Shown: piece after piece, positions 14,048-59,844 of the stretch
Layout: the number at the start of each line of letters is the position of its first letter
How positions within the stretch are numbered: position 1 is the first letter of the stretch
From: Stutzerimonas stutzeri RCH2
GTDB lineage: Bacteria; Pseudomonadota; Gammaproteobacteria; Pseudomonadales; Pseudomonadaceae
Reading direction: 5' to 3'
DNA length: 64,000 bases
NCBI RefSeq assembly: GCF_000327065.1
Contig: NC_019936.1
Location: forward strand, 4,244,001 to 4,308,000
The notes under the pieces: generated by a model
Told to the model about the DNA's origin: nothing
The model's input: only the letters and a program-made list of their open reading frames with translations
The model's database searches: none
Program-made: the position numbers and the translations under genes

Positions 14048-14048
14048 C

Positions 14049-14990: not shown

Positions 14991-15043
14991 CTACATTCTC
15001 CACAGCTCGGAAATTGAACCGCTCCCTGGTAGACATTGGCTCG

Positions 15044-45487: not shown

Positions 45488-46893
45488 GCAGCAGCCACCT
45501 GCCCTCGGTCGACAAGCTGCTGCGTGACCCGGCCTGCCAACCGCTGCAGCAGCGCTACGGCCGCCAGGCATTGCTGAGCACCCTGCGCGACCTGCTCGAT
45601 GAATTGCGCGAACCGGCCCGCCATGGCCAGCTGGCCGCGCTGGAACTGTCCGAAGCGGTGCTCGCCGGGCGCGCCGGCGAACGCCTGGCCAACCAGCACC
45701 GCAGCCGCGTACGCCGGGTGTTCAACCTCACCGGCACGGTGCTGCACACCAACCTCGGGCGCGCTCTGCTGCCGGATGAAGCCATCGAGGCGATCACCCT
45801 TGCCGCGCGCTATCCGCTCAATCTGGAATTCGATCTCGCCACCGGCAAGCGCGGCGATCGCGACGACCTCATCGAAGGGCTGATCCGCGAGCTGACCGGC
45901 GCCGAGGCCGTCACCGTGGTCAACAACAATGCCGCCGCCGTGCTGCTGGCCTTGAACAGCCTCGGCGCACGCAAGGAAGGCATCATTTCCCGCGGCGAGC
46001 TGATCGAGATCGGCGGTGCCTTCCGCATCCCCGACATCATGGCCCGCGCCGGCGTGAAGCTGCATGAAGTCGGCACCACCAATCGCACCCACGCCAAGGA
46101 TTACGAAGCGGCGATCAACCCGCGCTCGGGCCTGCTGATGCGCGTGCACACCAGCAACTACAGCGTGCAGGGCTTCACCGCCAGCGTCGCCACCGCCGAA
46201 CTGGCGCGCATCGCCCATGCCCACGATCTGCCGCTACTGGAAGACCTCGGCAGCGGCAGCCTGCTCGACCTCTCGCGTTGGGGTCTGCCGAAGGAGCCGA
46301 CCGTGCAGGAAGCCCTGCGCGATGGCGCCGATATCGTCACCTTCAGCGGCGACAAGCTGCTCGGCGGCCCGCAGGCCGGGCTGATCGTCGGCAGCAAGGC
46401 ACTGATCCAGAAGATCAAGAACAACCCGCTCAAGCGCACCCTGCGCGTCGACAAGCTGACCCTCGCCGCGCTGGAAGCGGTACTCAACCTCTATCGCGAC
46501 CCCGACCGCCTGGCCGAGCGCCTCACCAGCCTGCGCCTGCTCAGCCGCCCGCAGGCGGAGATCCGCACCCAGGCCGAACGTATCGCCCCGGCGCTGACCG
46601 CCGTGCTCGGCGAAACCTGGCAAGTCGCCGTAACCGATGCGCTGGGCATGATCGGCAGCGGCGCGCAGCCGGTGGCACGCCTGCCCAGCGCCGCGCTGTG
46701 CATCCGTCCGCAGCAGCCCAAGCGCTTGCGCGGCCGCAGCCTGCGCCAACTGGAAGAAGCCCTGCGCTGCCTGCCGATTCCGGTGCTCGGGCGCATCGAC
46801 GACGACGCCTTCTGGCTCGACCTGCGCCAGCTCGACGACGAGCCGACCTTCCTCGAATTGCTGCCACATCTGCAAGAGGAACTCGCCCGTTGA
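45484..46893 (+). CDS. selA: L-seryl-tRNA(Sec) selenium transferase
   Basis: 469 residues. PLP enzyme that turns Ser-tRNA(Sec) into Sec-tRNA(Sec) using selenophosphate. The PLP lysine is in [36 protein letters not shown] and [12 protein letters not shown] are SelA signatures. It overlaps fdhE and selB by 4 bp each. The selenophosphate synthase gene selD is not in the window. Confidence 0.95.
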
Positions 46894-48806
46894 TCGTCGG
46901 TACCGCCGGCCATATCGACCATGGCAAGACCGCACTGCTGCAAGCCCTTACCGGGCAACAGGGCGACCGCCGCCGCGAGGAGCGCGAGCGCGGCATCACC
47001 ATCGACCTCGGCTACGTCTACGCCGACCTCGGTGAAGGCAGCCTCACCGGCTTTATCGACGTGCCGGGCCATGAGCGTTTCGTACACAACATGCTGGCCG
47101 GCGCCAGCGGCATCGATTGCGTGCTGCTGGTGGTCGCCGCTGACGATGGCGTGATGCCGCAGACTCGCGAGCACCTGGCCATCGTCGAGCTGCTCGGCAT
47201 CCGCCGCGCGCTGGTAGCGCTGACCAAGATCGACCGCGTCGAGACGGCGCGCATCGCTGAAGTGCAGCGGCAGATCGAAAACCTGCTGGTCACCGGGCCA
47301 CTGGCCGGCGCGCCGATCTTCCCGGTCTCCAGCATTCGCGGCGATGGCGTCGACGCCCTGCGCACCGCGCTGATCGAAGAAGCCGCCCGCACCGCCGCAC
47401 GCAGCGCCAGCGGCCACTTCAGGCTGGCCATCGACCGCGCCTTCAGTGTCACTGGCGCCGGGGTGGTGGTTACCGGCACCGCCTTTGCCGGGCGCGTGCG
47501 AATCGGCGACGAACTATTACTCGGTCCCACCGGCAAACGCGTGCGCGTACGCGGCCTGCACGCGCAGAACCGGGAAGCGGACGAAGCCCATGCCGGCCAG
47601 CGCGTGGCGCTGAATCTTGCCGGCGAGCGACTGGCCGTCGAGCAGATCCATCGCGGCGACTGGCTACTGCACCCCCTGCTGCATACCCCAACCCAACGCA
47701 TCGATATCGACTTCAAGCTGCTGCCCGGCGAAGCCCACGAGCTCAAGCACTGGGCGCCGGTGCACGTGCATCTCGGCGCCCAGGACGTCACCGCGCGCGT
47801 CGCCCTGCTCGAAGATGCGAGCCTGGCGCCGGGCGAACACGCCTTTGCGCAGCTCCTGCTGAACGCACCGAGCCACGCCGTGCATGGCGATCGCATCGTC
47901 CTGCGCGATCAATCCGCCCAGCGCACCCTTGGTGGCGGCCGCGTGCTCGATCCGTACGCACCACCGCGCAATCGCCGCCGCGCCGCACGGCTGGAACAAC
48001 TTCGCGCCCTCGACCAGCCGAGCCTGGAGCAGGCGTTGCCGCAACTGCTCGCCAGCGCCACCAACGGCATTGACCCACAAAGCCTGGCACGCCAGTTCAA
48101 CCGCCCACGCGAAGGCTGGCAGCTGCCGCACGGCGTAGTGGAAGTCGGCACCCGGCTCGGCCCGCGCATGTTCGATCAGGCCCGCTGGAGCGAACTCGAC
48201 ACCACCCTGCTCGCGGCCCTGCAACGTTTTCACGAAGAACAACCCGACGAACTCGGCCCCGACCGCGACCGCCTGCGGCGCTACGCCCTGCCGCAGCTGG
48301 AACGACCGGTATTTATCGCCCTGCTGGAACAGGCACTGGCCGCCGGCCGCATCGAAACCAGCGGCCCGTGGCTGCACCGCCCCGATCACCGGGTGCGCCT
48401 GAGCGATGCGGAAGAAGGTTTGAAGGAACGCCTGTGGCCGCTGCTCGAAGCCGGCCAGTTCGACCCACCCTGGGTCCGCGACCTGGCCCGCGACCTCGGC
48501 GTCGACGAAACGCAGATGCGCAACCTGCTACGCAAACTCGCCCGCCTCGGCCTGCTGCAACAGGTGGTGAAAGATTTGTTCTACCCCGAGTTCACCATTC
48601 GCCAACTCGCGGGGCATGTACTGCAACTGGAAGCACAAAGCGGCGTGATCCGCGCCGCCGCCTTCCGCGACCGCATCCAGCTCGGCCGCAAACGCAGCAT
48701 CCAACTGCTCGAACACTTCGACCGCATCGGCCTCACCCGCCGCTTCGGCAACGAACGCAAAGTCCGCCCCGACAGCGCCTTGGCGATCCAGTCAGCCCTG
48801 GGTTAG
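46890..48806 (+). CDS. selB: Selenocysteine-specific elongation factor SelB
   Basis: 638 residues from TTG 46890, overlapping the selA stop (TTGA) and giving [22 protein letters not shown]-terminal EF-Tu-like GTPase (DVPGHERF G3; TKID G4), two beta-barrels, and C-terminal winged helices that bind the SECIS hairpin. It delivers Sec-tRNA to UGA codons in fdnG. The truncated 5' copy of selC begins 39 bp downstream. Confidence 0.94.
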
Positions 48807-48841
48807 GCTGGTCGCCGCTTCCTCTTCGGCGTCTCGACAAG

Positions 48842-48884
48842 ATAAGGAAGGCAATCGCACCCGGTGGTGCGGCCGGGCTTCAAA
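48842..48884 (+). repeat. attL core with truncated selC 5' half
   Basis: 43 bp identical to 59745-59787. From 48846 it is the 5' part of selC (acceptor strand, D arm, anticodon arm to just after the TCA anticodon). After 48884 the sequence departs from tRNA, so this copy cannot fold into a tRNA. It marks the original position of selC, directly after selB. Confidence 0.92.
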
Positions 48885-49275
48885 TCCTGTTTAGCGTGAG
48901 TCATCAATGGACTACGTTGGTCAAAACCGGTGTTCTGCGAATTTTGAGCGACTCGTTGCGGTCTATGTTGGCGATTGATGGCCATAGCTTTCGACACTTT
49001 TTCGACACCATGAGAATGCTGCTAAACAGCTCAGCTGGTGCAATTGGTGCGACTAATGGCCAGCTTCTACAACCAGCCAAATGCTAAGCTCAACCATGAT
49101 AGCAGCGCACCAATAGGTTTAATGCTATTAAGATACACCGGCCGATAGAAAATTAATTATAGACACAGCTTTAGGTGCTCTATGTTAAAGACTGTCAAGC
49201 CGTTTTTTTTTATGTTTCAAGCTGTAGAATGCGCCCAATTTTGCGCCTCCAGCTTCATGGAGGAAGGAGAGCAAG
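48885..49275. other. Left prophage arm without a clear gene
   Basis: 391 bp, AT-rich toward the right, with a 9-T run near 49202-49210. No convincing ORF. It contains a 20-bp element at 48989-49008 repeated near the right end, and probably the promoter of the deaminase unit. The sequence around the element could instead be the remnant of an older integrase 3' end, since it encodes FRHFFDT in one frame. Confidence 0.4.
48989..49008 (+). repeat. Left candidate integrase arm-type site
   Basis: Two TTCGACAC copies in tandem, 104 bp inside attL. The same 20 bp, with one T/C difference, occurs at 59678-59697 near attR in the same orientation, so the pair would flank attP in the circular phage. Confidence 0.45.
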
Positions 49276-49483
49276 GTGAAAATCGTAGATTTTCATAAGT
49301 CCAAATGTGAAAGGGCATCATCTAAAAACCGCAACGGTTTAGATGCAAATGTTGTTGCATTTTCTTCGCTCAGAGAGCGAAAGAAAGAAGATGAACACAA
49401 AAAAGCATTGAATAATATTCTTGCCAGAGCACAAGAGCTGGATTGGTAAATAGTTACAACCTGCTCCTAAAAGGATGTTGAGC
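49150..49483 (+). ncRNA. Candidate antitoxin RNA region (AvcI/DifV-type) upstream of the deaminase gene
   Basis: Known AvcD/DcdV deaminases are kept inactive by a short RNA encoded just upstream on the same strand. The corresponding place here is the AT-rich interval before 49484, which also contains a 57-codon ORF. Ends are approximate; I cannot show transcription or a conserved fold from one sequence. Confidence 0.3.
49276..49449 (+). CDS. 57-aa charged protein upstream of the deaminase
   Basis: GTG 49276 is preceded by a strong GGAAGGAGA site. The product is basic/acidic mixed and hydrophilic (MKIVDFHKSKCERASS at the start, ending ARAQELDW), with a likely C-terminal helix. It stops 34 bp before the deaminase start. 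I do not recognise a family. It may be a real small protein, or an ORF lying within an antitoxin RNA, as reported for avcI loci. Confidence 0.5.
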   Translation: MKIVDFHKSKCERASSKNRNGLDANVVAFSSLRERKKEDEHKKALNNILARAQELDW

Positions 49484-51079
49484 ATGGCCAATGTAAGCAC
49501 AGCTGCAAGAACACTCACCAGTCTTGGCAGCGCCAAGGGAGATATTCTAGAACGAGTCGAAGGGCGCCGTAGCGACGAAATAGTTGCTGCATTCTGTGGC
49601 GCGGTCGGATGTAATCTCTCAGATGTTATTAGAAACATGAGACACCAGTTCGAGGACTATGGATATGTCGTCGAACACATCAAAATTAGCGACATCATAA
49701 AGCAGCACTTCCAAGACAATCCTTTACCGCCTGACCTTGCATCAGAAGACCTTAGCTCCTTAACTGGAATCAAGCGCTATTCTGTCCTGCAAGACCTGGG
49801 TAATCACTTGCGGCAGAAACATGGAACGAGAGTCCTTGCAGCTCTCGCAATGTCTAGAATTGCCACGCATCGGAATATACAAACTAAAGACGGCAAGATA
49901 AAAGCCCCAAAAACTGTATACATCATAGATCAGCTCAAGCATCACCATGAGGTTGAGCTTTTCAGGCTTGTATACGAAGATCTATTTTATCTTATAGGGG
50001 TTTTCAGCCCCCAACGGGTTAGGTTCAATCATTTAACTAAGATTGAGCAAATGTCAGGCCCGGATGCGCTCTCCTTAATTGAGCGAGACAGAAACGAGTC
50101 TGCGTCAACGCACGGTCAAAAGCTTGAAAAAACTATTCAGCTTTCGGATTATTTTGTTTGCAACGGGCAAGATAACTCCTCTAACTTAGTTGAACCCGCT
50201 CAGCGTTTTTTAGGTTTAGTCCACGGAAAAAATGGCATAACCCCTACTAAAGATGAAGCGGGGATGTACGCGGCTTACTCTGCGTCGCTGAAATCTGCCT
50301 GCCTAAGCCGGCAAGTCGGCGCGGCCATCGCGAACAAGGATGGCAACATCATATCCGTTGGTTGGAACGATGTTCCACGGTCGGGCGGCGGGCTTTATAC
50401 ATCAGACTCTCCTAATGATCAGCGTTGCTTTCATCATCGTGGATTTTGCTACAACGACTTTCATAAAGATCGCCTCATTTCGAGCATCGTTGACATCGTA
50501 GGCGCGCAATTAAGCGTAACCCCGGAAATAAAAGACAAATTAGCTGATCTAATTCAGAAAGAAACCCGCGCCGGCTCCATTATCGAATATTCGCGAGCCA
50601 TTCACGCAGAAATGGAAGCTATTTTGGGGCTAGCACGCGCTCAAGGTGGCTCGACTGAGTCCTCCACGCTATATACAACAACTTTCCCCTGTCACAATTG
50701 CGCCCGGCACATTATTGCTGCGGGAATAAAAAGAGTTGTTTATATCGAGCCCTACGAAAAAAGCCTAGCTTTAGATTTACATGATGACGCGATAACCCTC
50801 GAAGAAGGCCGTACTGATATGACCCTCTTTGAAAACTTTAGCGGTGTTTCTCCCGCACGCTATGCCTCGTTCTTCTTAGCAAAAGGCAAAAGAAAAGACG
50901 ATAAAGGACATGCCGTAGATATAATTAAAGGCGACGCCAAACATATAGCAATCAAGTATCTCGACCCCTATCAAATGATCGAGACTAAGGTCGTAGCTGA
51001 TACTTTAGAAAAAATGGCAGGATCTGAATTTAGTCCGCCCCATCCTGAAGACGACTTCACGCCTCCTGGTGCTGCCTAG
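49484..51079 (+). CDS. DcdV/AvcD-type deoxycytidylate deaminase (anti-phage)
   Basis: 531 residues from ATG 49484 (AAAGG 9 bp upstream). N-terminal P-loop-kinase-like domain (AAFCGAVGCNLSDVI, lacking the usual Walker lysine, as in this family) and C-terminal zinc-dependent CMP/dCMP deaminase domain: HAE at 374-376, then Cys403 and Cys406 in FPCHNCARH. A third conserved block precedes it (SRQVGAAIANKDGNIISVGWNDVP). This two-domain layout is that of DcdV/AvcD enzymes, which deaminate dC nucleotides on phage infection and starve phage DNA synthesis. Codon use and base composition are more AT-rich than any neighbour, which points to horizontal acquisition as prophage cargo. Confidence 0.85.
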   Translation: MANVSTAARTLTSLGSAKGDILERVEGRRSDEIVAAFCGAVGCNLSDVIRNMRHQFEDYGYVVEHIKISDIIKQHFQDNPLPPDLASEDLSSLTGIKRYSVLQDLGNHLRQKHGTRVLAALAMSRIATHRNIQTKDGKIKAPKTVYIIDQLKHHHEVELFRLVYEDLFYLIGVFSPQRVRFNHLTKIEQMSGPDALSLIERDRNESASTHGQKLEKTIQLSDYFVCNGQDNSSNLVEPAQRFLGLVHGKNGITPTKDEAGMYAAYSASLKSACLSRQVGAAIANKDGNIISVGWNDVPRSGGGLYTSDSPNDQRCFHHRGFCYNDFHKDRLISSIVDIVGAQLSVTPEIKDKLADLIQKETRAGSIIEYSRAIHAEMEAILGLARAQGGSTESSTLYTTTFPCHNCARHIIAAGIKRVVYIEPYEKSLALDLHDDAITLEEGRTDMTLFENFSGVSPARYASFFLAKGKRKDDKGHAVDIIKGDAKHIAIKYLDPYQMIETKVVADTLEKMAGSEFSPPHPEDDFTPPGAA

Positions 51080-51115
51080 GAAACGTTTTTTAGCTAGCTG
51101 GTTGAAAACCCAATG

Positions 51116-51667
51116 CTAATTTCTAGTATTTAGGTTTACGCTGGCTTTGCAATTTCGGCGTTCAATACTTCCTTCCCCACCAGGGCAGAAGTCGCTTATC
51201 CGTGACTCTTTGCCTACAACCACAATTTCTTTTTGGCGGGCTGGGATCGTTACAGCCGGCTCCGGGATAACCCGTGTGGCAGGAACGATATTCGCCGCCC
51301 CCTGGGGAACGTAGTTCTTGTCGTTGAATACGGTTTGCTTGGGTGGTGTCTCTGTCGTAGCAGCTTGGGGCTGGGGTGTTTGCGGCTGAGGCGTTGCACC
51401 TCTCGCGGCCACTTCTTCTACTACCCTGTCCCAATCCTTGGTCGCTGCTGGCTCTGCTCGCTTGATTTCGGCCACGGGGGCTGGCTTGGGTTGGATGCGC
51501 TTATCGGCGATGCCCTGGGCGGTGCCTTTGAGGAATGACGAACTCGCCATCTGTAGGCCGGCTAGCATGATCGCGGTGCCGATCAGCCCTGGTATCAGCC
51601 ATGCTACGGCTCCCTTGCGCGGGCGCCTTCTGATGTAGTCCGGGGCGTCGTGCCATTCAGCCTTCAT
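51116..51667 (-). CDS. Hypothetical single-pass membrane protein
   Basis: 183 residues on the strand opposite to the phage core. A short basic N-terminus, one membrane segment (AVAWLIPGLIGTAIMLAGLQMA), then a long Pro/Gln/Ala/Thr-rich hydrophilic region with a Cys pair near the C-terminus (DFCPGGEGS, RRNCKAS). I do not recognise a family. Position between the deaminase and the repressor suggests a phage accessory or superinfection gene. Confidence 0.6.
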   Translation of the reverse strand: MKAEWHDAPDYIRRRPRKGAVAWLIPGLIGTAIMLAGLQMASSSFLKGTAQGIADKRIQPKPAPVAEIKRAEPAATKDWDRVVEEVAARGATPQPQTPQPQAATTETPPKQTVFNDKNYVPQGAANIVPATRVIPEPAVTIPARQKEIVVVGKESRISDFCPGGEGSIERRNCKASVNLNTRN

Positions 51668-51724
51668 ATCTCCCTCTCCCTGTCCTTCGGGCGTACCAGC
51701 GCCTAGTCACTTCCTTGGTGATCG

Positions 51725-51994
51725 CTATCCCGCGTCTTGACCGGTCAAGTTTCGGTTGGCCTCGTCGTAATCGGGACTCGTCTGCCCGCACTCCGGAGCG
51801 ATCTCACCGCTTGCGACCCATAAGGCGTACTGCGGATAGAGCTTCACCAGGACCTCGACCTCCTCTGTACTCAACCGCGCCTTCTTGTGGCGTAGGTTTT
51901 TCCATCGGCTGTAGTTGATCTCCGACTTGCGGACCAGATCGTCTAGGCCAGCCTTATAGATCAGAGCAATAGCTCTATCCTGCATCGATTCCAT
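51725..51994 (-). CDS. Phage repressor-like DNA-binding protein
   Basis: 89 residues. The sequence AIALIYKAGLDDLVRKSEINYSRWKNLRHKKARLSTEEVEVLVKLYPQYALWVASG has the XRE/Cro-like HTH layout followed by the YxLWxxSG segment common in small prophage repressors. No Shine-Dalgarno is evident, so translation may be from a near-leaderless mRNA; Met at 51985 is an alternative. It is divergent from the excisionase-like gene, and repeated operators lie between. Confidence 0.7.
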   Translation of the reverse strand: MESMQDRAIALIYKAGLDDLVRKSEINYSRWKNLRHKKARLSTEEVEVLVKLYPQYALWVASGEIAPECGQTSPDYDEANRNLTGQDAG

Positions 51995-52013
51995 AAAGGT
52001 CTAAGAATCTCTG

Positions 52014-52080
52014 AGTTCACTATTTGAACTCTAGGAATACACTGTTATTCTTTGCCTGTCAGTTCACTATTTACACTCTA
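52014..52080. promoter_or_regulatory. Repeated operators in the lysogeny switch region
   Basis: Two 20-bp direct repeats, 52014-52033 and 52061-52080, differ at two bases. The first contains a perfect dyad GTTCA-N5-TGAAC. Between them lies GAATA-N6-TATTC (52035-52050). The array occupies the space between the divergent repressor and excisionase-like genes, as expected for repressor binding. Confidence 0.6.
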
Positions 52081-52136
52081 AAGCTGCACTGACGTAGCCC
52101 TATAAAGACCAACATAGTGCAACAAAGGCCAAGGAC

Positions 52137-52352
52137 ATGGAAGGAAACCTACCGCCGATAGACCTGCTCAACGCGCCCCCTGTCATGCCGTGGCGCCAGT
52201 TCGCGGACTGGATTCGCATGAATGATGAACACGACGTGGTGTGGGGCTGGATTCGCAACGGCTACATCCCGTCGCACAAGGTTGGCAAGTACGTGATGGT
52301 CAACGTGGCGCTGCTGGTTAAGCAGCTCATGGAAAAGGAGTGGGACTCATGA
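52137..52352 (+). CDS. Excisionase/AlpA-like small DNA-binding protein
   Basis: 71 residues. MPWRQFADWIRMNDEHDVVWGWIRNGYIPSHKVGKYVMVNV has the pattern of winged-HTH excisionase proteins such as Pf XisF. As the first rightward gene next to the repressor it likely controls excision and early expression. Confidence 0.65.
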   Translation: MEGNLPPIDLLNAPPVMPWRQFADWIRMNDEHDVVWGWIRNGYIPSHKVGKYVMVNVALLVKQLMEKEWDS

Positions 52353-52391
52353 TCCGCGCCGCCTACGGAAAGCCAGGGGAAGGGATGACCT

Positions 52392-52730
52392 ATGTCGAAG
52401 CTGACCAGCTATCAACGCCTTCCGCACGCCCAGGACTGCGACTGCTCTGTCTGCTGGTCCAGACGCGAAATGGCGAAACACGCTCCCTCCCCGTCCACAC
52501 GCTGCGCCCAATGCCGCCCCGCCTCTGCGCGGCCGATTCGCACGCTGCAAATGGGCCGCGTCGGTGGTGCCTGGAAGCCTCTGGTCTCGGAGTGGACAGT
52601 GGAACCGGCCTTTATCTGCGAGAAGCACACGCCGCCCGACCGCCCCACGAAGTGGTGGAGCGTTATCTACGACTCGGGCAAGCCCACGCCCTACGTACCG
52701 ATTCACGAACCGTTCGAACTGGTGGGCTAA
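52392..52730 (+). CDS. Cys-rich phage protein of unknown function
   Basis: 112 residues from ATG 52392. Cysteine pairs in CDCSVCWSR and RCAQC plus a later FICEKH suggest metal binding. The competing frame (52349-52930) gives Arg/Pro-rich sequence typical of out-of-frame GC-rich DNA, so this frame is preferred. No family recognised. Confidence 0.55.
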   Translation: MSKLTSYQRLPHAQDCDCSVCWSRREMAKHAPSPSTRCAQCRPASARPIRTLQMGRVGGAWKPLVSEWTVEPAFICEKHTPPDRPTKWWSVIYDSGKPTPYVPIHEPFELVG

Positions 52731-53105
52731 AGCCAACCGCCCCCGCCGAAGCCGAACAGGTCCAGGGCCGCGCTCCCGGCTCGTCGGATCACGCTTCACC
52801 GATCCGGCGAACGGAAGCACGGGCGCAGCGCACCCTTGACCCGGCACAAACCGAAACAGCCTCCGCTCGTGAGTGTGGGGCAGCTTCACCGCCCCGCGCT
52901 CCCGAGCCCTCGGCGGCAAGAGTGGGATGACAAGGGCAAAGCCCTTGGTGTTAACCAACTAGAGAACACGCACAACGCGACGTTTTAACCGGTAGGCCAA
53001 GTAACAGATCACCTCGGCGAACTTGCGAGTTCACCGGTTCGGGATCGCTCGGCCTGCAGAAAGCAAAGCAGCGCAATAAAGCGCAACTAGAGAGAGGAAA
53101 CACAA
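52731..53105. other. Gene-free interval with hairpin
   Basis: About 375 bp with no convincing gene in either direction. A small perfect hairpin CAAGGGC-AAA-GCCCTTG lies at 52931-52947. The region may hold the promoter of the ssDNA-binding/coat operon or part of the phage intergenic signals. Confidence 0.4.
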
Positions 53106-53477
53106 ATGGCACGTTCGATCATGGAAGTTGCATTTCTCAGCGCCGAGAAAGTCGAGTTCGACAACGTGAAGCTGGTGAAGCTGTTTGTTGGTGACGAGCC
53201 AGACGGCAAGCGTGACCTCGGCATTTCCATCCTGTCGATGAATGTCTCCGAAGAAGCCCTGGACGAAGTGTGGTCCGCCTGCGAAAGCCTCGATGTGCTT
53301 GAGCCGATCCGCGTCACCACCGAGATCGAGCGAGGCTCCAAGAACGCCGGCAAGTTCATCGTCCTGCACGTTGAGCCTGTGAAAGCCGCCGCTGCTCAAG
53401 CCACCAAGCCGACCCAGCAACCGACCCCAACCGCCAAGCCAGCCGGCACCCAGCCGGAACCGGCGAAGGCCAACTAA
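53106..53477 (+). CDS. Candidate phage single-stranded DNA-binding protein (gpV position)
   Basis: 123 residues. A compact N-terminal domain of about 95 residues (ARSIMEVAFLSAEKVEFDNVKLVKLFVGDE) and a flexible Ala/Pro/Lys/Gln tail. Size, tail and place, just ahead of the small virion genes, match inovirus ssDNA-binding proteins, but the sequence itself is not diagnostic. GAGAGGAAA precedes the start. Confidence 0.55.
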   Translation: MARSIMEVAFLSAEKVEFDNVKLVKLFVGDEPDGKRDLGISILSMNVSEEALDEVWSACESLDVLEPIRVTTEIERGSKNAGKFIVLHVEPVKAAAAQATKPTQQPTPTAKPAGTQPEPAKAN

Positions 53478-53492
53478 CCGGGAGGGGCGGCC

Positions 53493-53672
53493 ATGCTGAT
53501 TGATGACCGGGTGTACTGCGACTGCTGCGGAAACGACATGGGCAAGCTCATGGCGCTGCCCGCGCCGCAAAGCGACCTGCTGCCCGACCTCAGCCTGCCG
53601 CCCCATTTCGCCGTCTGCCCTGACTGCGAACCCTCCGAACAAACCACCGACCTCGAGCAGGCCGGCGAATGA
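53493..53672 (+). CDS. 59-aa zinc-ribbon-like phage protein
   Basis: ATG 53493 has GGGAGGGG just upstream. Two cysteine clusters, YCDCCGN and VCPDCE, are spaced as in a small treble-clef or zinc ribbon. It overlaps the next gene by ATGA. Function unknown. Confidence 0.65.
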   Translation: MLIDDRVYCDCCGNDMGKLMALPAPQSDLLPDLSLPPHFAVCPDCEPSEQTTDLEQAGE

Positions 53673-53884
53673 ATTTCCTCGCCTGTGACGGTGACTGGCT
53701 ACAAGGCGCCGATGGCTCGCCCATCTGCTCCGGCTCGCTGGTCGCCCTCACGGTCGAGGAAATGCAAAGCCTCTACGGCTCTGCACTGACCTGGGACCAA
53801 GTCTCCGAGCTGCAAGGCGAAGCGATTGTTCTGTTCGCCACCGTGTTCGGCTTCCTGGTCCTGAAAAAAGCCCTGAAACAGTGA
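53669..53884 (+). CDS. 71-aa phage membrane protein
   Basis: Hydrophilic N-terminus with two cysteines and one C-terminal membrane segment (AIVLFATVFGFLVLKKALK). Lies between the zinc-ribbon gene and the coat gene; comparable small membrane proteins in inoviruses are minor virion or assembly proteins. Role not determined. Confidence 0.65.
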   Translation: MNFLACDGDWLQGADGSPICSGSLVALTVEEMQSLYGSALTWDQVSELQGEAIVLFATVFGFLVLKKALKQ

Positions 53885-53894
53885 GGTATCACCC

Positions 53895-54104
53895 ATGCAA
53901 CTGAACAAGCACTTCATCAAGAAAATCGGCGTTGGCGCTGCTGTCGCGCTCTCCACCCTGGCCGGCTCCGTCTACGCGGCAGTCCCGGCCGAAGCCACCG
54001 CGGCGCTGGATACCGCCGGCACCGACGTCGGCACCATCGGCTGGGCGGTGTTCGCCGTGATCATCGCCGCGATGGCGTTCAAGTACATGCGCCGCGCCCT
54101 GTAA
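53895..54104 (+). CDS. Major coat protein precursor (pVIII-like)
   Basis: 69 residues. Signal sequence with the likely signal peptidase site after VYA, leaving a mature chain of about 41 residues: acidic N-terminus (AVPAEATAALDTAG), hydrophobic centre (IGWAVFAVIIAAMAF) and basic end (KYMRRAL). This three-part plan is the hallmark of the inovirus major capsid protein. A terminator follows, as expected for the most abundant phage transcript. Confidence 0.9.
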   Translation: MQLNKHFIKKIGVGAAVALSTLAGSVYAAVPAEATAALDTAGTDVGTIGWAVFAVIIAAMAFKYMRRAL

Positions 54105-54139
54105 CCGGGGTTTTGCGCACTGCATGTGCCGAAGCAAAC

Positions 54140-54163
54140 AAACCCCGCTCCGGCGGGGTTTTC
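54140..54163 (+). terminator. Terminator after the major coat gene
   Basis: AAACCCCGC, TCCG loop, GCGGGGTTT and further T: a 9-bp perfect stem 35 bp after the coat stop. It would lower expression of the downstream minor protein genes, as in Ff phages. Confidence 0.85.
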
Positions 54164-54181
54164 TCTTCCAGGGAAACGCCA

Positions 54182-54253
54182 ATGAGCTACGAACTGTACG
54201 TCCTGATCCTCACCACCCTGGCGTTTTATCTCGTGTTTTTTGGGCGGGTGTGA
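54182..54253 (+). CDS. 23-aa membrane mini-protein (minor coat candidate)
   Basis: MSYELYVLILTTLAFYLVFFGRV, given here as SYELYVLILTTLAFYLVFF in its core, is one short membrane helix. It has AGGGAAA upstream and ends 2 bp before the pIII start. Size and location are like pVII/pIX or pVII-type minor coat proteins. It could instead be a leader peptide. Confidence 0.55.
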   Translation: MSYELYVLILTTLAFYLVFFGRV

Positions 54254-54255
54254 TT

Positions 54256-55749
54256 ATGAAAAGGATTTTTGCGGTTTTTTTGCCTTTGCTGCTCTGGCAC
54301 TTGTCCGCTAGCGCCGAAGATTATTATTGGACCATTCAATTTCCGGACCCGCTAATAAGATATTCCAGCGGTGTCGCCGCCTGTAATGCAAACCATGCCT
54401 ACTACAAGCAACTAAACTCCGGGCAATATGTTTCGTTTGAGCAGGAGATTGAAAAAGGTACGGCGTCTTTTACCTGTCGTACATATGGATTAAATATCAA
54501 TCCCTATTCCGGGAAGCTTGAGCGTTACGGTTCTTGGTACAACGCAGCAGCTAGACGCGGCGATTCTTGCGCCCCTGATTCCACTTACGACCCTTCGACT
54601 GGCGAGTGTGTCGCCCCTGAACCCGACCAGTGCGCCACCGCAACCGGCGAGTTCGTCCACGAGTACAACGCCGGCTCGCTGGATCCGTCCGTTCCGCCTT
54701 CCCTGCCGCCGTCCTCCATCTGCGAAAGCGGCTGCCTCTACAACCGCACCGCCACGGTCAAAGGCTGCAACCGCTTTCTGGAAGACACCACCGGCAAGGA
54801 CCTGAACTCCGTTTATTGCAAGGTGGTTTACCAAGGCGCCGGATCTCAATGCACCTCAAACAGCCCACCTCCCGGCAGTGTCTTTGATCAGCCACCGTCC
54901 AAGCCCCCGGCCGACAGCACACCGCAATTCACCAGCGAAAGCCAATGCGGTGACTGGGTGACCAACGCGGACGGCTCGCAATCGCGCAACTGCACCAGTA
55001 GCGAAAAGCTGAAAGAGCCCGGCCAGCTCAATTGCGACAACGCCGGGGATTACCTGCACTGCACCACCGGCAAGCCCGCGCCACGGCTTGAAGACACTAC
55101 AAAAACCGAGGAAACCACCAAGACCACCAATCCGGACGGCTCCACGAAGACGGAAACCAACACCACCACCGACAAGACCGTCTGCGTTGGCACCAAGCCC
55201 TGTACCTCCACCACGGCTGAAGAAAAGTCCACCTCTGGCACCAACCCTGATGGCACTCCAGGCGATGAGAGCAAGGAATGCAAAGGGTCTGGCTGTAAGG
55301 AAAGCCAGGAGGGTGAAGAAGACGGCGAAGAAGGCCCGGAGCGTTTGGCTTCTGCCGGCTCCTGCGATGCGGCGTTCTCGTGCAGTGGTGACCCTATTGA
55401 TTGCGAAGTGCTCCGGCAGCAGAAGGAACAGCTTTGCCTTGCTGAGGAAATGGCCGATTTCCCCAAACAGCAGTCCGCCATCGAGGCGGCTGTTACCGGT
55501 GACCGATTCCAGCTGGATGAAGGTAACGGCGTCATCGACGTGCCTTCGTTCATCAACCAGGGCACCCGCTTTCTGCCGTCCGCCTGTCCCGCCGCCGAGA
55601 GCTTCAGCCTGACCACAGCAGGCGGTCGCACTTTCCAGCTCAGCTACGAACCGCTTTGCCGCGCCGCCAGTGACCTGAGCGGCCTCTTCGTGGCCGTGGC
55701 CACCGTTCTTGCCGCCCTGTATGTGGGCCGCGCCGTAGGAGGTCAGTGA
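54256..55749 (+). CDS. pIII-like adsorption/attachment protein
   Basis: 497 residues from ATG 54256. Signal peptide (RIFAVFLPLLLWHLSASA), a Cys-rich N-terminal region, a long Thr/Lys/Glu/Ser-rich linker (about 280-400), a C-terminal domain and a final membrane anchor (LSGLFVAVATVLAALYVGRAVGG). This is the layout of inovirus pIII, which binds the pilus/Tol receptors and releases the virion. The first 100 codons are noticeably more AT-rich than the rest, as often seen for the exchangeable receptor-binding domain. Confidence 0.8.
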   Translation: MKRIFAVFLPLLLWHLSASAEDYYWTIQFPDPLIRYSSGVAACNANHAYYKQLNSGQYVSFEQEIEKGTASFTCRTYGLNINPYSGKLERYGSWYNAAARRGDSCAPDSTYDPSTGECVAPEPDQCATATGEFVHEYNAGSLDPSVPPSLPPSSICESGCLYNRTATVKGCNRFLEDTTGKDLNSVYCKVVYQGAGSQCTSNSPPPGSVFDQPPSKPPADSTPQFTSESQCGDWVTNADGSQSRNCTSSEKLKEPGQLNCDNAGDYLHCTTGKPAPRLEDTTKTEETTKTTNPDGSTKTETNTTTDKTVCVGTKPCTSTTAEEKSTSGTNPDGTPGDESKECKGSGCKESQEGEEDGEEGPERLASAGSCDAAFSCSGDPIDCEVLRQQKEQLCLAEEMADFPKQQSAIEAAVTGDRFQLDEGNGVIDVPSFINQGTRFLPSACPAAESFSLTTAGGRTFQLSYEPLCRAASDLSGLFVAVATVLAALYVGRAVGGQ

Positions 55750-56075
55750 TGCAGTTTCTATTCATCGTCCAGATGCTCGTGATCATCGTCGGGCCGCTGG
55801 TGAAGATGGTGCTGAAGATGATCGGTTTCGGTTTTGTCTCCTACATGGGCTTCAACCTCATCATTGGCCAGGCGCAGGACTACCTGTTCGGGCTGATGGG
55901 CGATGTCGGGCCGGTCATCCAAGGGATTCTCGGACTGGCGAAGTTCGATGTGGTGGTGAACCTGTATTTCGCCGCGATCTCCACGCGCTTCATCCTCGCC
56001 GGCATCGACAAGGCCACCGACCGCAAACGTAATCAGGTCTGGCATAAGCCGGGCGGCACCTCTATCGACGCATAA
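55749..56075 (+). CDS. pVI-like minor coat protein (DUF2523-type)
   Basis: 108 residues; ATG 55749 overlaps the pIII stop. Three hydrophobic segments (FLFIVQMLVIIVGPLVKMVL; FGFVSYMGFNLIIG; VVVNLYFAAISTRFILAGI). Between the pIII and Zot genes this matches the pVI position in inoviruses. Confidence 0.8.
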   Translation: MQFLFIVQMLVIIVGPLVKMVLKMIGFGFVSYMGFNLIIGQAQDYLFGLMGDVGPVIQGILGLAKFDVVVNLYFAAISTRFILAGIDKATDRKRNQVWHKPGGTSIDA

Positions 56076-56087
56076 GGAGGCGCCGTC

Positions 56088-57272
56088 ATGCTCGTTATCC
56101 GCACCGGCAAGCCCGGCCATGGCAAGACCCTGAACACCATCCGCGAGGTCGACCAGAAGGCTCACGCCGAAGGCCGGGTCGTCTACTTCCATAACATCAA
56201 CGGTCTCAAGCCCGATCAGCTGCAAGCGCAGTGGTTCGAGTTCGAAGATCCCGAGAAGTGGTTCGAGCTGCCCAACGATTCGATCATCGTGGTCGACGAA
56301 GCGCAGGGCTGGTTTGGCTCGCGCGATCCCAGGGCGCGGCCACCGGAGCACATCACCCGCTTCGAGACCATGCGCCACCAGGGCCACGAAGTGCACCTCG
56401 TCACACAGGACCCGCGCTATCTCGATGTGCATCTGCGCCGGCTGTGTAACACCCACATTCACTACTGGCGCGTCTTCAAGTCCGCCCAGCTGCTGCGCTT
56501 CGAGTCGGAAGTCGTCGTAGAAAAGGTCGAGCTGAAAACCAGCTTCAAGGATGCTGACAAGAAGTCACTGCGCCTGGATAAGCGCTACTTCGGTGCCTAC
56601 ACCAGCAGCAACGCCAAGCACCACTTTCAGGCCAAGGTGCCGACCAAGTTCATCTTGGCCATCTGCGTGCTGGTCGGTGCCGGCATCCTCGTTTATCGCG
56701 CCTATGAACGCTATGCAGCCGAAAAAGCTCAAGCCGCGACGGCTACCAGCGCGCCGGCCGGGAGCATGGTCGATCAAGTGAGGGATACGGTCGGCGCATT
56801 CATCAAGCCGGTAGGCGAGGCGAAAACCGATGCGCCGGAAAGCGCCGCCAGCTACATCGGGCGGCGCGTGCCTCGGATACCGCAAGTCCCATCGTCGGCG
56901 CCGATCTACGACGAGCTTACGCGGCCCGTGTCGTTTCCCCGACTCTACTGCATGTCCAGCACGGACCCTGCGACCTATGCCCGCGAGTTCGGGCGAATGG
57001 CGCATGCGGTAGTCAACGGCACGCCCACCGTCTGCCAGTGCTACACGCAGCAGAGCACGCGGGTCGAAACCGACTTCGCATTCTGCATGCGCGTGGTCGA
57101 AAACGGCTTCTTCGATCCGACCCTTCCTGATCGCTCCGCTGGCGAGCGAACGCAGCAAGTCCAGAACAGCCAGCCTCCGGCAATGCAGGGGCCACGCCCT
57201 GGACCAGCACAGCCAGCCAGTGGCACGAACATGACTGTCGTGCCGTACCAGAAGGGGCAATTCCTGTGGTGA
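56088..57272 (+). CDS. zot: Zot-domain assembly ATPase (pI)
   Basis: 394 residues with AAGGAGG upstream. Cytoplasmic P-loop ATPase (GKPGHGKT at 7-14; Walker B SIIVVDEAQGWF near 65-75), one membrane helix about 188-207 (FILAICVLVGAGILVYRAY), and a periplasmic C-terminal part. pI/Zot proteins drive phage extrusion; the cholera-toxin connection of the name does not apply here. Confidence 0.9.
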   Translation: MLVIRTGKPGHGKTLNTIREVDQKAHAEGRVVYFHNINGLKPDQLQAQWFEFEDPEKWFELPNDSIIVVDEAQGWFGSRDPRARPPEHITRFETMRHQGHEVHLVTQDPRYLDVHLRRLCNTHIHYWRVFKSAQLLRFESEVVVEKVELKTSFKDADKKSLRLDKRYFGAYTSSNAKHHFQAKVPTKFILAICVLVGAGILVYRAYERYAAEKAQAATATSAPAGSMVDQVRDTVGAFIKPVGEAKTDAPESAASYIGRRVPRIPQVPSSAPIYDELTRPVSFPRLYCMSSTDPATYAREFGRMAHAVVNGTPTVCQCYTQQSTRVETDFAFCMRVVENGFFDPTLPDRSAGERTQQVQNSQPPAMQGPRPGPAQPASGTNMTVVPYQKGQFLW

Positions 57273-57276
57273 TGAC

Positions 57277-57352
57277 CGTCAGCGCGCGTGCGCTCCGCGC
57301 TCTTTGCACGCACGGCGAGGCACGAGCCGGCGTGCAAACGCGCGCGCTGACG
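57277..57352. repeat. Nested inverted repeat: candidate phage origin or packaging signal
   Basis: Outer 12-bp perfect arms CGTCAGCGCGCG (57277-57288) and its complement (57341-57352) enclose a second perfect dyad TTTGCACGC (57303-57311)/GCGTGCAAA (57330-57338). It starts 5 bp after the Zot stop and ends 67 bp before the replication gene, the place of the Ff packaging signal and origin. Confidence 0.6.
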
Positions 57353-57419
57353 TCCCTGTAACACGTCAGATAGATCGAGTTGAAACCGTCCGTTATTGGA
57401 CATTGTTGGAGATTCAAGA

Positions 57420-58700
57420 ATGAGCGTTAAAGACCAAGCAAGACTGGACCACATCACGGGCAATCCGACCAAGCGTGGACGGTTGTTCGTTGACCCTGGT
57501 ACTGCGGCAATCACCGATCTGTCGAAGGTCCGTCTGCTGCGTTGCGGCGTCGATACGGTTCGCCAGTTGTATCGCGGGCTGATCCGTCCAGAGATCATGG
57601 CGCTGTTCGAGAAAACGGGCGCGATGGTGGAGTTTGCTGGCGAAGTCTGGCACTCGGGACGGGTTGGCCGGGACTCTGGCTACCAATACAAGCTCCAGAA
57701 CGCTGACCTTGGGTTCATCCTGCTCATCAAGAATTTCAACGCCAAGCTGGAGAACATCGGGCCGCACCTGAAAATCGAGGTGTCGCCGCACGCCATCGAC
57801 GCGCTGTCGCCTGAGCGTCTGCAAGAGCGGATGGATTACTACGCGGCGGCAGTCATGACCAACCGCGAACGTAACCAGTGCGCCGTCCATTTGGCGTTGG
57901 ACCTCCAGGGCTGGAAGCCTCCAGTCGATCTGGTAGCCCGCCTGCACTGCCGCGCGCGAACGCATCGCGATATTTCCGGAATCAAGGAAATTCAGTGGGC
58001 CACCAAGTCCAGTGTTTACGGTCGGGGCGAAACGTCCATGTTCGGCTCGGCCAGCGGCGTGCAGCTCTGCATCTACAACAAGACCGAGCAGGCCCGCGCA
58101 ACCGACAAGCTCGACTACTGGGAAAGCGTGTGGCGTCGCCGTGACTCCTTCGACCCGACCGACCCTGACAACTACGATCCAGGCGCTGACGTGTGGCGCG
58201 TTGAGTTGCGCTATCACCACTCGGTCATCCAGCAGTTCGCCAGCGGCTCGATCAGTGCGAAGACCGGTGAGGCCATCGATACGGATTCGTTTTCGGCCTT
58301 CTCGGCTCATCTGGACGGCCTGTGGCGCTATGGCCTGAGCCAATTCAAGCTGATCGCCCGCCCCGGCTATTACGAGCCGATCTGGACGCTAATGCGTGAT
58401 GACGCGAGGGTCGATCTACCGGTCGATTCCCTGGTCGAGGAAACGGAGTACAAGCGCTATTACAAGACCTCAAGGGGCTTCTCGGGCAAGAACGTCGAGC
58501 TGTTCCTGGGAAACTTCGTAAGCCTGCTGGCACGGGAGCGAGTGGGCGCTAAGACCGCATTTGATCGATTGAAGCAATGGGAATGCTGGCCAGTGATCCG
58601 CGACCACTACGCCGCCAAGGACATGAGCGAGCGCGACCTCTACAAGCACATCAAGAACCTGTTACAGGAACGACACGTGCGATGGGGGCGTGCCGTCTGA
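57420..58700 (+). CDS. Phage replication initiation protein
   Basis: 426 residues from ATG 57420. It resembles the phage/plasmid replication proteins found after zot in Pf-like phages (VKDQARLDHITGNPTKRGRLFVDPG; QLCIYNKTEQARATDKLDYWESVW; WRVELRYHHSVIQQFA). It should nick the plus strand to start rolling-circle replication. The stop overlaps the integrase start (TGATG), so both genes are translated from one message. Confidence 0.8.
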   Translation: MSVKDQARLDHITGNPTKRGRLFVDPGTAAITDLSKVRLLRCGVDTVRQLYRGLIRPEIMALFEKTGAMVEFAGEVWHSGRVGRDSGYQYKLQNADLGFILLIKNFNAKLENIGPHLKIEVSPHAIDALSPERLQERMDYYAAAVMTNRERNQCAVHLALDLQGWKPPVDLVARLHCRARTHRDISGIKEIQWATKSSVYGRGETSMFGSASGVQLCIYNKTEQARATDKLDYWESVWRRRDSFDPTDPDNYDPGADVWRVELRYHHSVIQQFASGSISAKTGEAIDTDSFSAFSAHLDGLWRYGLSQFKLIARPGYYEPIWTLMRDDARVDLPVDSLVEETEYKRYYKTSRGFSGKNVELFLGNFVSLLARERVGAKTAFDRLKQWECWPVIRDHYAAKDMSERDLYKHIKNLLQERHVRWGRAV

Positions 58701-59740
58701 TGGCGATACTGGCACTGCCTGACGGTCGCTGGCGGGTCGATGTTGAACCGATCAAGGGCAAGCGATTCCGCAAGACCTTCAAGACCAAGGGCGAAGCCCA
58801 GCGGTTCGAGGCTACCTGTCGATCCAAGCTGATCGAAAGCCCGCAATGGTCACCAAAACCGAAGGATCGTCGTCGCCTGTCTCAACTGGTGGACTGCTGG
58901 GGGCGTCTGCACGGTCAGTCGCTGTCCGACTATGAGGGTCGGCGCGTCATCATGGATCGCATGGTCGAACGCCTGAAAGACCCTGTCGCCATAGCCTTCA
59001 CTGCTACCGATTTCGCGGAGTACCGCGCCAAGCGCCTCTCGTCCGGCATCAGCCCGAAAACGCTGAACAATGAGCTGTCTTACCTGCGGGCCATGTTCAA
59101 TGAGCTACGGCGACTTGGTGAGATCGAGTTCGAGAATCCGCTTTCGATGCTCAGGGCGATTCGTGTGCAGGAAAGGGAACTGTCCTGCCTCGACAGCCAT
59201 CAGATCGAACGGCTGTTCCAGGTACTGCGCAGCATGGTTCACCCACACGTGGAGCTGATCGCCACGATCTGTCTGGTGACCGGTTGCCGATGGGGTGAAG
59301 CGCAAGGGCTCACGATCAGTCGGGTGGGCGATGGCATGCTCCAGTTTGTGAACACGAAGTCGAAGCGTCGCCGTGTGGTGCCGATCGATCAGAAGCTAGC
59401 GGAGCGGATACGCCAGCACCTTCGGCAACACGGTGCGTTCACCAACTGCCGGGATCGGTTCGATGAAGCTGTGGTGCGTGCGGGGCTGGGTCTACCTGCG
59501 GGACAAAAGTCGCATGTGTTGCGGCATACCTTCGCCTCACACTTCATCGCGAACGGTGGCAATATCCTGACCTTGCAGAAGATACTCGGGCACTCGTCCC
59601 TGGCGATGACAATGCGGTACGCGCACCTTGCGCCCGATCATCTGCAAGACGTGTTAGCGTTTGGGCCTGCTAGGGATTTTCGACACTTCTTCGACACTCC
59701 CGCCTCTGAGCGACAGTCGGGGCAGGAAATTCCTTTGTAA
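58700..59740 (+). CDS. int: Tyrosine recombinase integrase
   Basis: 346 residues from ATG 58700. N-terminal arm-binding and core-binding domains, then the catalytic domain with Arg197 (TGCRWGEAQG), His272-x-x-Arg275 (HVLRHTFASHF), the LGHSS histidine, and nucleophile Tyr307 (MRYAHLAP). It catalyses attP x attB recombination at selC. The stop codon is only 8 bp from the first base of selC. Confidence 0.93.
   Translation: MAILALPDGRWRVDVEPIKGKRFRKTFKTKGEAQRFEATCRSKLIESPQWSPKPKDRRRLSQLVDCWGRLHGQSLSDYEGRRVIMDRMVERLKDPVAIAFTATDFAEYRAKRLSSGISPKTLNNELSYLRAMFNELRRLGEIEFENPLSMLRAIRVQERELSCLDSHQIERLFQVLRSMVHPHVELIATICLVTGCRWGEAQGLTISRVGDGMLQFVNTKSKRRRVVPIDQKLAERIRQHLRQHGAFTNCRDRFDEAVVRAGLGLPAGQKSHVLRHTFASHFIANGGNILTLQKILGHSSLAMTMRYAHLAPDHLQDVLAFGPARDFRHFFDTPASERQSGQEIPL
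59678..59697 (+). repeat. Right candidate integrase arm-type site
   Basis: Tandem TTCGACAC copies inside the 3' end of int, 47 bp before attR; 19 of 20 bases match 48989-49008. Confidence 0.45.
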
Positions 59741-59744
59741 ATCA

Positions 59745-59787
59745 ATAAGGAAGGCAATCGCACCCGGTGGTGCGGCCGGGCTTCAAA
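59745..59787 (+). repeat. attR core (inside intact selC)
   Basis: 43-bp perfect match to attL. It starts 4 bp before the tRNA and ends just after the anticodon, so recombination leaves the 3' half of selC joined to a phage-borne 5' half that is identical to the original. Confidence 0.92.
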
Positions 59788-59844
59788 CCCGGTTGGGGAC
59801 GGCAGCCGTTCCCGGGTGAGTTCGACTCTCACTGCCTTCCGCCA
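59749..59844 (+). tRNA. selC: tRNA-Sec (anticodon UCA)
   Basis: 96 nt. The 8-bp acceptor stem GGAAGGCA/TGCCTTCC, TCA anticodon at 59783-59785, long variable arm (GGGGACGGCAGCCGTTCCC region), T arm GGTTCGA-like GAGTTCGACTC, and encoded GCCA are as in bacterial selC. It serves UGA decoding in fdnG. In the lysogen its upstream DNA is phage sequence: it lies 8 bp after int and 10.9 kb from selB. Confidence 0.95.

Follow-up and report, generated by a model that had tools for sequence, protein, structure and literature searches.

How can a filamentous, single-stranded DNA (ssDNA) phage tolerate an enzyme of its own that depletes deoxycytidine nucleotides, and whom would such an enzyme serve? This question is raised by a prophage of Stutzerimonas stutzeri RCH2 that lies in a stretch of 64,000 nucleotides on contig NC_019936.1 of the 4.6-Mb host genome (positions 4244001 to 4308000). 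We refer to this whole stretch as the window and count coordinates from its first base unless the host genome or another contig is named. The prophage is a Pf-like inovirus inserted in tRNA-Sec, and its accessory slot holds an intact gene for a deaminase of 531 amino acids (aa), which a preliminary description had regarded as an anti-phage enzyme. Our reading, to which we assign a probability of roughly 0.8, is that two genes of this prophage form an anti-phage module of the AvcID/DcdV kind, which would be silent while transcription runs and released when a lytic phage shuts transcription off. What the locus itself presents is a deaminase of an anti-phage family, a conserved 57-codon open reading frame (ORF) preceded by a probable promoter, and the occurrence of both in the same slot of two distinct Pf-like phages. 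That the deaminase defends the host is suggested by its family, while silence during lysogeny, release upon transcription shut-off, depletion of deoxycytidine nucleotides, and stalling of lytic replication would follow by analogy with published relatives.

Family and fold of the deaminase

The deaminase is assigned to the DcdV/AvcD type of anti-phage dCTP/dCMP deaminases, an identity put forward in the preliminary description and confirmed by family models that match the protein far above chance. It reaches 496 bits, against a cut-off of 400, with the NCBIfam model NF041025 ("anti-phage dCTP deaminase"; residues 35 to 474), 583 bits with the PADLOC dCTPase model, and 462 bits with PHROG 9198 (residues 25 to 515). 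The preliminary description had named best matches among housekeeping dCMP deaminases that lack the N-terminal domain as the outcome that would speak against this identity; instead, NF041025 is the best curated model, and the housekeeping ComEB model yields 64 bits where 219 are required. The zinc motifs lie exactly where they had been placed (HAE at residues 374 to 376 and PCHNC at residues 402 to 406, in 531-aa numbering), and H374, A375, E376, P402, C403, and C406 are invariant among 42 aligned sequences, this one included. As a start codon, the ATG at 49484, which stands behind AAAAGGA, is better placed than the in-frame ATG at 49475.

The structural comparison agrees with a two-domain protein. 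In the AlphaFold model (mean pLDDT, 80; pTM, 0.78; pLDDT of 88 to 93 for residues 31 to 130), the C-terminal domain matches the dCMP deaminases 2w4l, 2hvw, and 7fh4, as had been proposed, with the PBCV-1 dCMP/dCTP enzyme among the matches. The N-terminal domain matches the adenylate-kinase-related structures 3lw7 and 3h0k (TMt, 0.77 to 0.81), dephospho-CoA kinases, and UMP-CMP kinase; by sequence comparison, PDB matches chiefly cover the C-terminal domain, and kinase-like proteins are matched weakly (E value of 0.00036). The "P-loop-like" N-terminal domain of the preliminary description is therefore kinase-like by fold, but its P-loop site, GAVGCNLS (residues 39 to 46), does not have the canonical Walker A lysine. 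The aligned Pseudomonas members are also devoid of a lysine at this site, and most plasmid members have motifs like GAVGSGIK. An inactive double mutant of published AvcD carries S49K together with E376A (PMC10511110), which implies a serine in the tested enzyme; for this reason, we do not hold the Walker lysine to be defining.

The C-terminal dCMP deaminase fold would also suit an enzyme of nucleotide metabolism that supplies dUMP for phage DNA synthesis, as the dCMP deaminases of T4-like phages do, and 1,158 phage records match the protein, with many of the 60 listed annotated as dCMP deaminase. At least 80% of the query is covered in only 2 of these 1,158 records, however, and the other 58 listed match residues 253 to 471 only; among plasmid records, 49 of 66 matches cover at least 80% of the deaminase. 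Furthermore, the protein passes the long anti-phage model and falls far below the ComEB cut-off, and its gene lies in an accessory slot and is missing from 79 of the 81 related contigs searched, many of which are partial. A housekeeping or T4-like dCMP deaminase is thus rejected on model scores and match extent, and we regard a metabolic role as very improbable.

The locus upstream of the deaminase

A second gene, absent from the preliminary description, appears to precede the deaminase: a 57-codon ORF that ends 34 bases before the deaminase ATG. Homologous ORFs of 55 to 64 codons occupy the same place in Pseudomonas loci, in E. coli and Klebsiella plasmids, in Photobacterium, and in V. coralliilyticus. 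A protein search with the small ORF retrieved four relatives, one being a cluster identical to it that comprises 63 contigs and the others being 72 to 79% identical. When a profile of eight Pseudomonas ORFs was run against 31,365 ORF pieces from deaminase loci, it gave 19 matches at an E value of ≤1e-10, all just upstream of a deaminase and on the same strand, with the next match at an E value of 0.76. As some loci recur two or three times, these 19 matches reduce to 11 distinct loci; L162 and L043 among them were independent of the training set, and the ORF of L002 is identical to a training row (L001 denotes this phage). A profile extended to 14 rows recognized the small ORF in 16 of 68 deaminase loci. 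Of these 16, 15 had served for training or duplicate a training row; among the remaining 52, a few (e.g., L024) have nearly no upstream DNA in view.

All 16 of these loci fall into a single clade of 17 members in a 65-row deaminase tree (three partial rows were dropped), with support of 100/100 and members from Pseudomonas, Vibrio, Photobacterium, E. coli, and Klebsiella. The 17th member is plasmid p58 of enterotoxigenic E. coli (ETEC) H10407, which we take to be the tested ETEC AvcID system and whose upstream 61-codon ORF goes unrecognized by the profile. A C-terminal tryptophan is present in 17 of 18 aligned small ORFs, rows that were chosen for having the ORF, with p58 as the exception. Within a set of 32 viral contigs with deaminase relatives, the small-ORF family is represented in L001, L002, and L232, with a weak match in L206 (E value of 0.0012); L232, which did not contribute to training, was matched at 3.9e-8. 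No family member was found with the deaminases outside the clade (L202, L203, and L011 to L041) where upstream DNA was in view.

Upstream of the ORF, GTAGAATGC is found at an offset of 44 to 55 bases within the upstream piece of L001, L002, L004, L005, L006, L007, and L009, and it contributes a probable extended -10 element, TG-TAGAAT, of which none was seen in the alignment for L008, L010, and L043. This element is visible only through comparison of relatives; a scan for the sigma-70 consensus listed none on the plus strand before the module (4 in the region on both strands, with 3.2 expected).

The substitutions in the small ORF are those of a coding gene. The third codon position is the most variable in all 19 pairs compared (those of the 91 pairs that are >33% identical), with synonymous (dS) and nonsynonymous (dN) distances of 0.50 and 0.05 for L004, a Pseudomonas mediterranea record, against L009 and of 0.38 and 0.10 for L005 against L006; the proportions of differences in the other 17 pairs are 0.63 to 0.94 (pS) and 0.31 to 0.51 (pN). 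We consider that the upstream locus very probably makes a selected protein, which is predicted to form a helix over residues 19 to 56 (pLDDT of ∼90 at residues 31 to 50) in a model with a low pTM of 0.36.

In the published systems, the same position is held by a noncoding RNA. AvcI is described as slightly shorter than 300 nucleotides, with a minimal functional length of ∼171 bases, and forms a complex with AvcD in vitro (PMC10511110); that 171 bases equal 57 codons is suggestive, nothing more. Rifampicin depletes avcI RNA, and spectinomycin, which blocks translation, does not; likewise, AvcD of V. cholerae was activated by rifampicin and not by spectinomycin in an earlier study cited in the same text (PMC10511110). 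For the Vibrio systems that have been tested, the spectinomycin result is evidence against an antitoxin that is a labile protein. It could be, then, that the upstream locus acts purely as an AvcI RNA in which the ORF is incidental. In line with this, the 250-nucleotide leader of this copy folds better than all 200 shuffles (z score of -3.2), the small ORF folds better than all 150 synonymous-codon shuffles (z score of -3.2), and the dN of the small ORF is above that of the deaminase in nearly all 19 pairs (0.58 versus 0.26 for L001 and L005). Since six 250-base pieces of the deaminase gene used as a control range from -2.7 to 0.8, a z score near -3 is strong yet not unheard of. The whole leader reaches a z score of ≤-2 in only 4 of 15 loci (L001, L005, L006, and L199), and RNAalifold found no consensus pair in a nine-sequence alignment of the leader, on which ground we rejected an RNA structure shared across the clade. 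A subset of three sequences gave 54 pairs, 13 of them with changes on both sides, to which we attach little weight because these three were chosen after their good folding had been seen. No known Rfam antitoxin RNA matched the leader up to an E value of 1. Weighing the structured leader of this copy against the missing conserved pairs and the coding-type substitutions, we consider a purely noncoding partner less likely than not.

The inhibitor is accordingly best described as a candidate that may be protein, RNA, or both. More specifically, and tentatively, the antitoxin position of this clade might encode a small protein with an unstructured N terminus, a long C-terminal helix, and a final tryptophan, and this protein might bind the deaminase and keep it inactive, either by itself or jointly with the mRNA that encodes it. 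In that case, AvcID would be a toxin-antitoxin system of a dual RNA-and-protein or a type II-like nature, which filamentous phages would spread as defence cargo. The coding ORF in place of the published noncoding antitoxin poses a sharp, testable question, namely, whether its product holds the deaminase.

Carrier prophage, spread of the deaminase, and contents of the slot

The carrier is a Pf-like inovirus inserted in tRNA-Sec, and, within the reach of family searches, it has a complete core: a regulator, PflM (DUF5447), a small major coat protein, a pIII-like protein, a DUF2523 protein, a Zot/pI ATPase, Rep (PHROG 1159), and an integrase, among them the features by which Pf-like inoviruses are recognized (the Zot/pI ATPase, coat protein, pIII-like protein, Rep, integrase, and PflM). 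The 5' half of tRNA-Sec flanks it on both sides as an exact 43-bp repeat, for which none of 100 shuffles gave two matches. An IMG/VR provirus is identical (100%) over the same 10,903 bp and probably derives from this genome or one nearly identical to it. The cargo is situated in the interval from the left att repeat to the leftward genes, where accessory genes have been described in Pf phages of P. aeruginosa (PMC7549136). Both the location within an inovirus beside the left repeat and the AT-rich character of the block, as given in the preliminary description, hold: the GC content in 500-base intervals is 0.41 to 0.50 across 48750 to 51249 versus 0.52 to 0.66 across 51000 to 59749.

The same cargo sits in a second phage. 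The viral contig L002 represents a different Pf-like phage from another genome, with coat, pIII, and pVI proteins that find no match and a Zot protein that is 32% identical. Nevertheless, the block from the att site to the end of the deaminase is 96 to 100% identical in 200-base bins, compared to 76 to 97% in matching backbone bins (69% in one 71-base bin). This pattern points to a recent transfer of the block between phages. The small ORF differs at 0 of 171 bases and the deaminase at 22 of 1,593, with 18 silent and 4 replacement codon changes, which points to purifying selection, as for a working gene. Among 81 Pf-like contigs (the best 80 of 198 Rep matches plus L002, many of them partial), the deaminase is present only in this phage and L002.

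The survey of inoviruses for the same cargo, suggested in the preliminary description, also reached a third carrier. A protein-only scan of viral contigs returned 3 deaminase loci, and an alignment-based scan returned the 32 viral contigs mentioned above, with inovirus genes recognized in 3 of them (L001, L002, and L214). The other 29 were compared with the proteins of this phage only, some also with their ORF list, so that more remote inoviruses may have escaped recognition. With 10,058 bp, L214 represents a different type of inovirus (Zot, 100 bits; Rep_trans, 85 bits; DUF2523, 33 bits), and its deaminase is 42% identical to this one and passes NF041025 with 473 bits; it starts at the first base of the contig, which leaves its upstream DNA out of view. 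An unrelated inovirus with a distant deaminase implies that inoviruses probably acquired the enzyme at least twice.

In wider searches, 7,999 candidate proteins were scored and 6,919 kept at an E value of ≤1e-20; the nearest non-self deaminases are 84 to 88% identical and lie on contigs of at most 3.7 kb. The NF041025 cut-off is passed in 19 of 398 genomes of the host family, with 5 more just below it (376 to 396 bits) and at least a weak domain match in 397. In the host genus, 3 of 56 genomes have a long match (E value of <1e-70) and 17 more have a short match only, and a class-wide draw gave a match at an E value of ≤1e-60 in 3 of 369 genomes, the host included. A 92-kb viral contig (L232) encodes a 45% identical deaminase from position 9652 onward, preceded by a partner ORF ending in tryptophan. 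Three other loci were not counted as phage carriage. MT839973 (L043), a 5-kb "Bacteriophage sp." record, is probably a bacterial fragment, because no phage gene was recognized in its ORF list (no family search was made). In genome G044, a distant deaminase (35%; L182, positions 9579 to 11186) starts ∼0.7 kb beyond the repeat, ending near 8919, of a Pf-like element without recognized coat genes, and in L191 an 85% integrase match beside a deaminase is apparently a short remnant.

On two 4.6-kb plasmids of E. coli and Klebsiella (L045 and L047), the deaminase is the largest annotated gene and, with the small ORF, fills much of each. Such carriage, like the layout of a small locus followed by a toxic enzyme and the description of AvcID as a toxin-antitoxin system (PMC10511110), would fit a device that serves mainly for addiction, in which cells that lose the prophage exhaust a labile inhibitor and die or stall. 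This function is compatible with defence, and published AvcID protects E. coli against T5 (PMC10511110); we find addiction as the main role rather unlikely.

Related phages use the same slot for other genes, some of them defence-like. In 26 of the 81 contigs, which have an integrase at least 80% identical and the regulator upstream of Rep, the slot contains 34 non-core ORFs of at least 60 aa in 29 clusters (some being spurious overlaps), with the deaminase in 1 of the 26 (L001); in 6 contigs, fewer than 300 bases remain left of the regulator, so that the slot is hardly in view. Of 12 slot ORFs picked by hand, mostly the longest, 7 matched PADLOC models at an E value of <0.001, two of them weakly: an RT_IV reverse transcriptase (613 bits), HamB (223 bits) with an adjoining weak HamA (23 bits), AbiD (190 bits), an OLD-like ATPase (83 bits), a PDC-S02 candidate (46 bits), and a weak partial DrmA (23 bits). 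The other five had no PADLOC match at this threshold, and one of them has a NACHT domain. The slot looks like a compact hunting ground for further defence genes.

The host carries two further Pf-like Rep genes elsewhere in its genome. One belongs to a Pf-like prophage at tRNA-Gly (L179; host positions ∼3,232,400 to 3,245,100) whose coat, pIII, pVI, and Zot proteins are 97 to 100% identical to those of the phage in the window, with a 52% identical integrase and other cargo; two 346-aa proteins of this prophage had no PADLOC or NCBIfam match at an E value of <0.001. A further Pf-like element (L180 positions 7256 to 15533; host ∼3,090,756 to 3,099,033) lies in tRNA-Thr between 59-bp repeats and has a regulator, Rep, and integrase, with no coat or Zot gene found. 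Its cargo comprises a 528-aa PDC-M55C match (235 bits), a weakly AbiC/AbiP-like protein (31 to 34 bits), and a Fic protein, and the element shares 4.6 kb at 92% identity with G044 (L182 positions 1926 to 8919). We regard it as a candidate filamentous-phage satellite with defence cargo.

With such relatives in the same cell, one beside nearly identical virion genes, the deaminase might be aimed at rival filamentous phages rather than at lytic ones. Both other Pf-like elements, however, persist beside this prophage. The published trigger would also be absent, as filamentous phages are not known to stop host transcription. Moreover, four KKP (kinase/phosphatase) modules, which come from non-filamentous prophages and represent a different defence system, were without effect on M13 (PMC11341870). 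Taken together, this target seems highly unlikely.

The features of the prophage are collected in Table 1. Because the intact tRNA-Sec faces the phage with its 5' half and upstream flank, its expression may depend on phage-borne DNA, and the prophage parts it from apparent selA/selB genes (46278 to 59844; recognized by eye, no family search made). An istR match to Rfam at 54043 to 54164, away from the deaminase leader, scores 21.8 bits against a gathering score of 45.

Table 1. Features of the tRNA-Sec prophage and its insertion site, in window coordinates
Feature	Coordinates	Strand	Evidence
Left att repeat, tRNA-Sec 5' half, 43 bp	48842..48884	+	Exact repeat of 59745-59787; weak tRNA-Sec match 48846-48939, 28.5 bits (gathering score 47)
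Probable extended -10 promoter element TG-TAGAAT	49223..49230	+	Conserved among relatives
Conserved 57-codon ORF, GTG start with GGAGGAAGGAGAG before it; candidate partner/antitoxin in AvcI position	49276..49449	+	Homologues upstream of deaminases; dN far below dS; strong RNA fold in this copy
DcdV/AvcD-type anti-phage dCTP/dCMP deaminase, 531 aa	49484..51079	+	NF041025, 496 bits; PADLOC dCTPase; fold search
Phage protein, 183 aa, PHROG 7381 (function unnamed); right edge of cargo slot	51116..51667	-	42.5 bits; related proteins encoded by other Pf-like contigs
Phage transcriptional regulator, PHROG 147; orf89/Pf4r position by layout	51725..51994	-	PHROG search
Phage protein, 71 aa, PHROG 1864; probable excisionase by position only	52137..52352	+	PHROG search
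PflM lysogeny maintenance protein (DUF5447)	52392..52730	+	Pfam, 153.8 bits
Possible ssDNA-binding protein, by position only	53106..53477	+	No Pfam match
Major coat protein	53895..54104	+	PHROG 7106, 95.5 bits
pIII-like minor coat protein, by position and size	54217..55749	+	PHROG 4352 (function unnamed), 308 bits
pVI-like minor coat protein (DUF2523)	55746..56075	+	Pfam, 47.9 bits
Zot/pI-like assembly ATPase	56088..57272	+	Pfam Zot, 70.9 bits
Replication initiation protein	57396..58700	+	PHROG 1159 (itself unnamed), 691 bits; Rep_trans, 16.4 bits, below cut-off
Tyrosine integrase; true start probably nearer 58700	58577..59740	+	Pfam Int_N and Phage_integrase; PHROG 1
Right att repeat, 43 bp	59745..59787	+	Exact repeat of left att
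Intact tRNA-Sec; 5' half and upstream flank on phage side	59749..59844	+	ARAGORN; Rfam RF01852, 80.6 bits

A proposed silent module and its published relatives

AvcD is described as inactive until host transcription stops (PMC10511110). By analogy, the partner locus of this prophage, whether RNA, small protein, or both, would keep the deaminase silent while transcription runs. A lytic phage that shuts off host transcription would cause the loss of the unstable inhibitor, and the released deaminase would convert dCTP and dCMP into dUTP and dUMP, so that replication of the lytic phage stalls. Filamentous phages are not known to stop host transcription, and chronic, nonlytic phage release needs a transcribing host. 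Since the published trigger is a stop in transcription, the carrier could therefore tolerate a deoxycytidine-depleting enzyme of its own: growing without shut-off or cell killing, it would have the inhibitor constantly remade, and phage and host would both gain protection. If the module works in this way, nucleotide depletion is the means by which a 10.9-kb ssDNA phage equips its host against lytic phages, and the shut-off trigger explains why the carrier is spared.

Several observations weigh against this reading. The absence of the P-loop lysine makes the role of the N-terminal domain less certain, the module can be linked to the tested Vibrio systems at the family level only, and the 61-codon ORF of p58 neither matches the ORF model nor ends in tryptophan. 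In addition, if the deaminase were ever released, nucleotide depletion could also harm the replication of the filamentous phage.

The closest described relatives are the AvcID systems of Vibrio and ETEC. They share with this module a full-length family match, the HAE and PCHNC motifs, a kinase-like N-terminal domain, and a short locus directly upstream, and the p58 deaminase belongs to the same clade as this one (100/100). They differ from the module described here, which is inovirus-borne, has a coding-type 57-codon ORF ending in tryptophan upstream, and is of predicted activity. A likeness also exists to type III toxin-antitoxin systems (ToxIN-like), in which a toxic enzyme is held by an unstable upstream locus and triggered by transcription shut-off, as presented for AvcID in PMC10511110 and PMC12409362; unlike in those systems, the upstream locus here also evolves as a protein-coding gene.

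As for the carrier, insertion in tRNA-Sec is shared with the Pf-tRNA-Sec prophages of P. aeruginosa (PMC7549136), which belong to a different genus. The 27-bp att fragment given there ends like the 3' end of the tRNA, whereas the repeat of this prophage covers the 5' half over 43 bp and has the phage upstream of it. Regarding the cargo, the text of PMC11878078 lists eight defence systems in 12 Pf phages (toxin-antitoxin type II, Retron, Kiwa, ShosTA, Gabija, IetAS, PfsE, and Avs), and Pf6 carries the KKP module (PMC11341870). These anti-phage genes resemble the present case in lying mostly in the accessory part, with PfsE in the core, and differ from it in being systems other than a deaminase. 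In work on filamentous and tailless prophages of marine Vibrio, the small filamentous ones likewise have a variable locus enriched in defence functions (PMC11630473). The word "deaminase" is absent from the main texts of PMC11878078, PMC11341870, PMC11630473, and PMC7549136, supplementary tables being outside this scope. A search of titles and abstracts gave no report of this deaminase in filamentous phages or of a coding partner (supplements and subscription papers lay outside it). Filamentous phages carrying anti-phage genes are thus already known (PMC11341870, PMC11878078, and PMC11630473); what deserves attention here is the deaminase as a cargo that has spread from one inovirus to another, along with the conserved coding ORF found where the antitoxin is expected.

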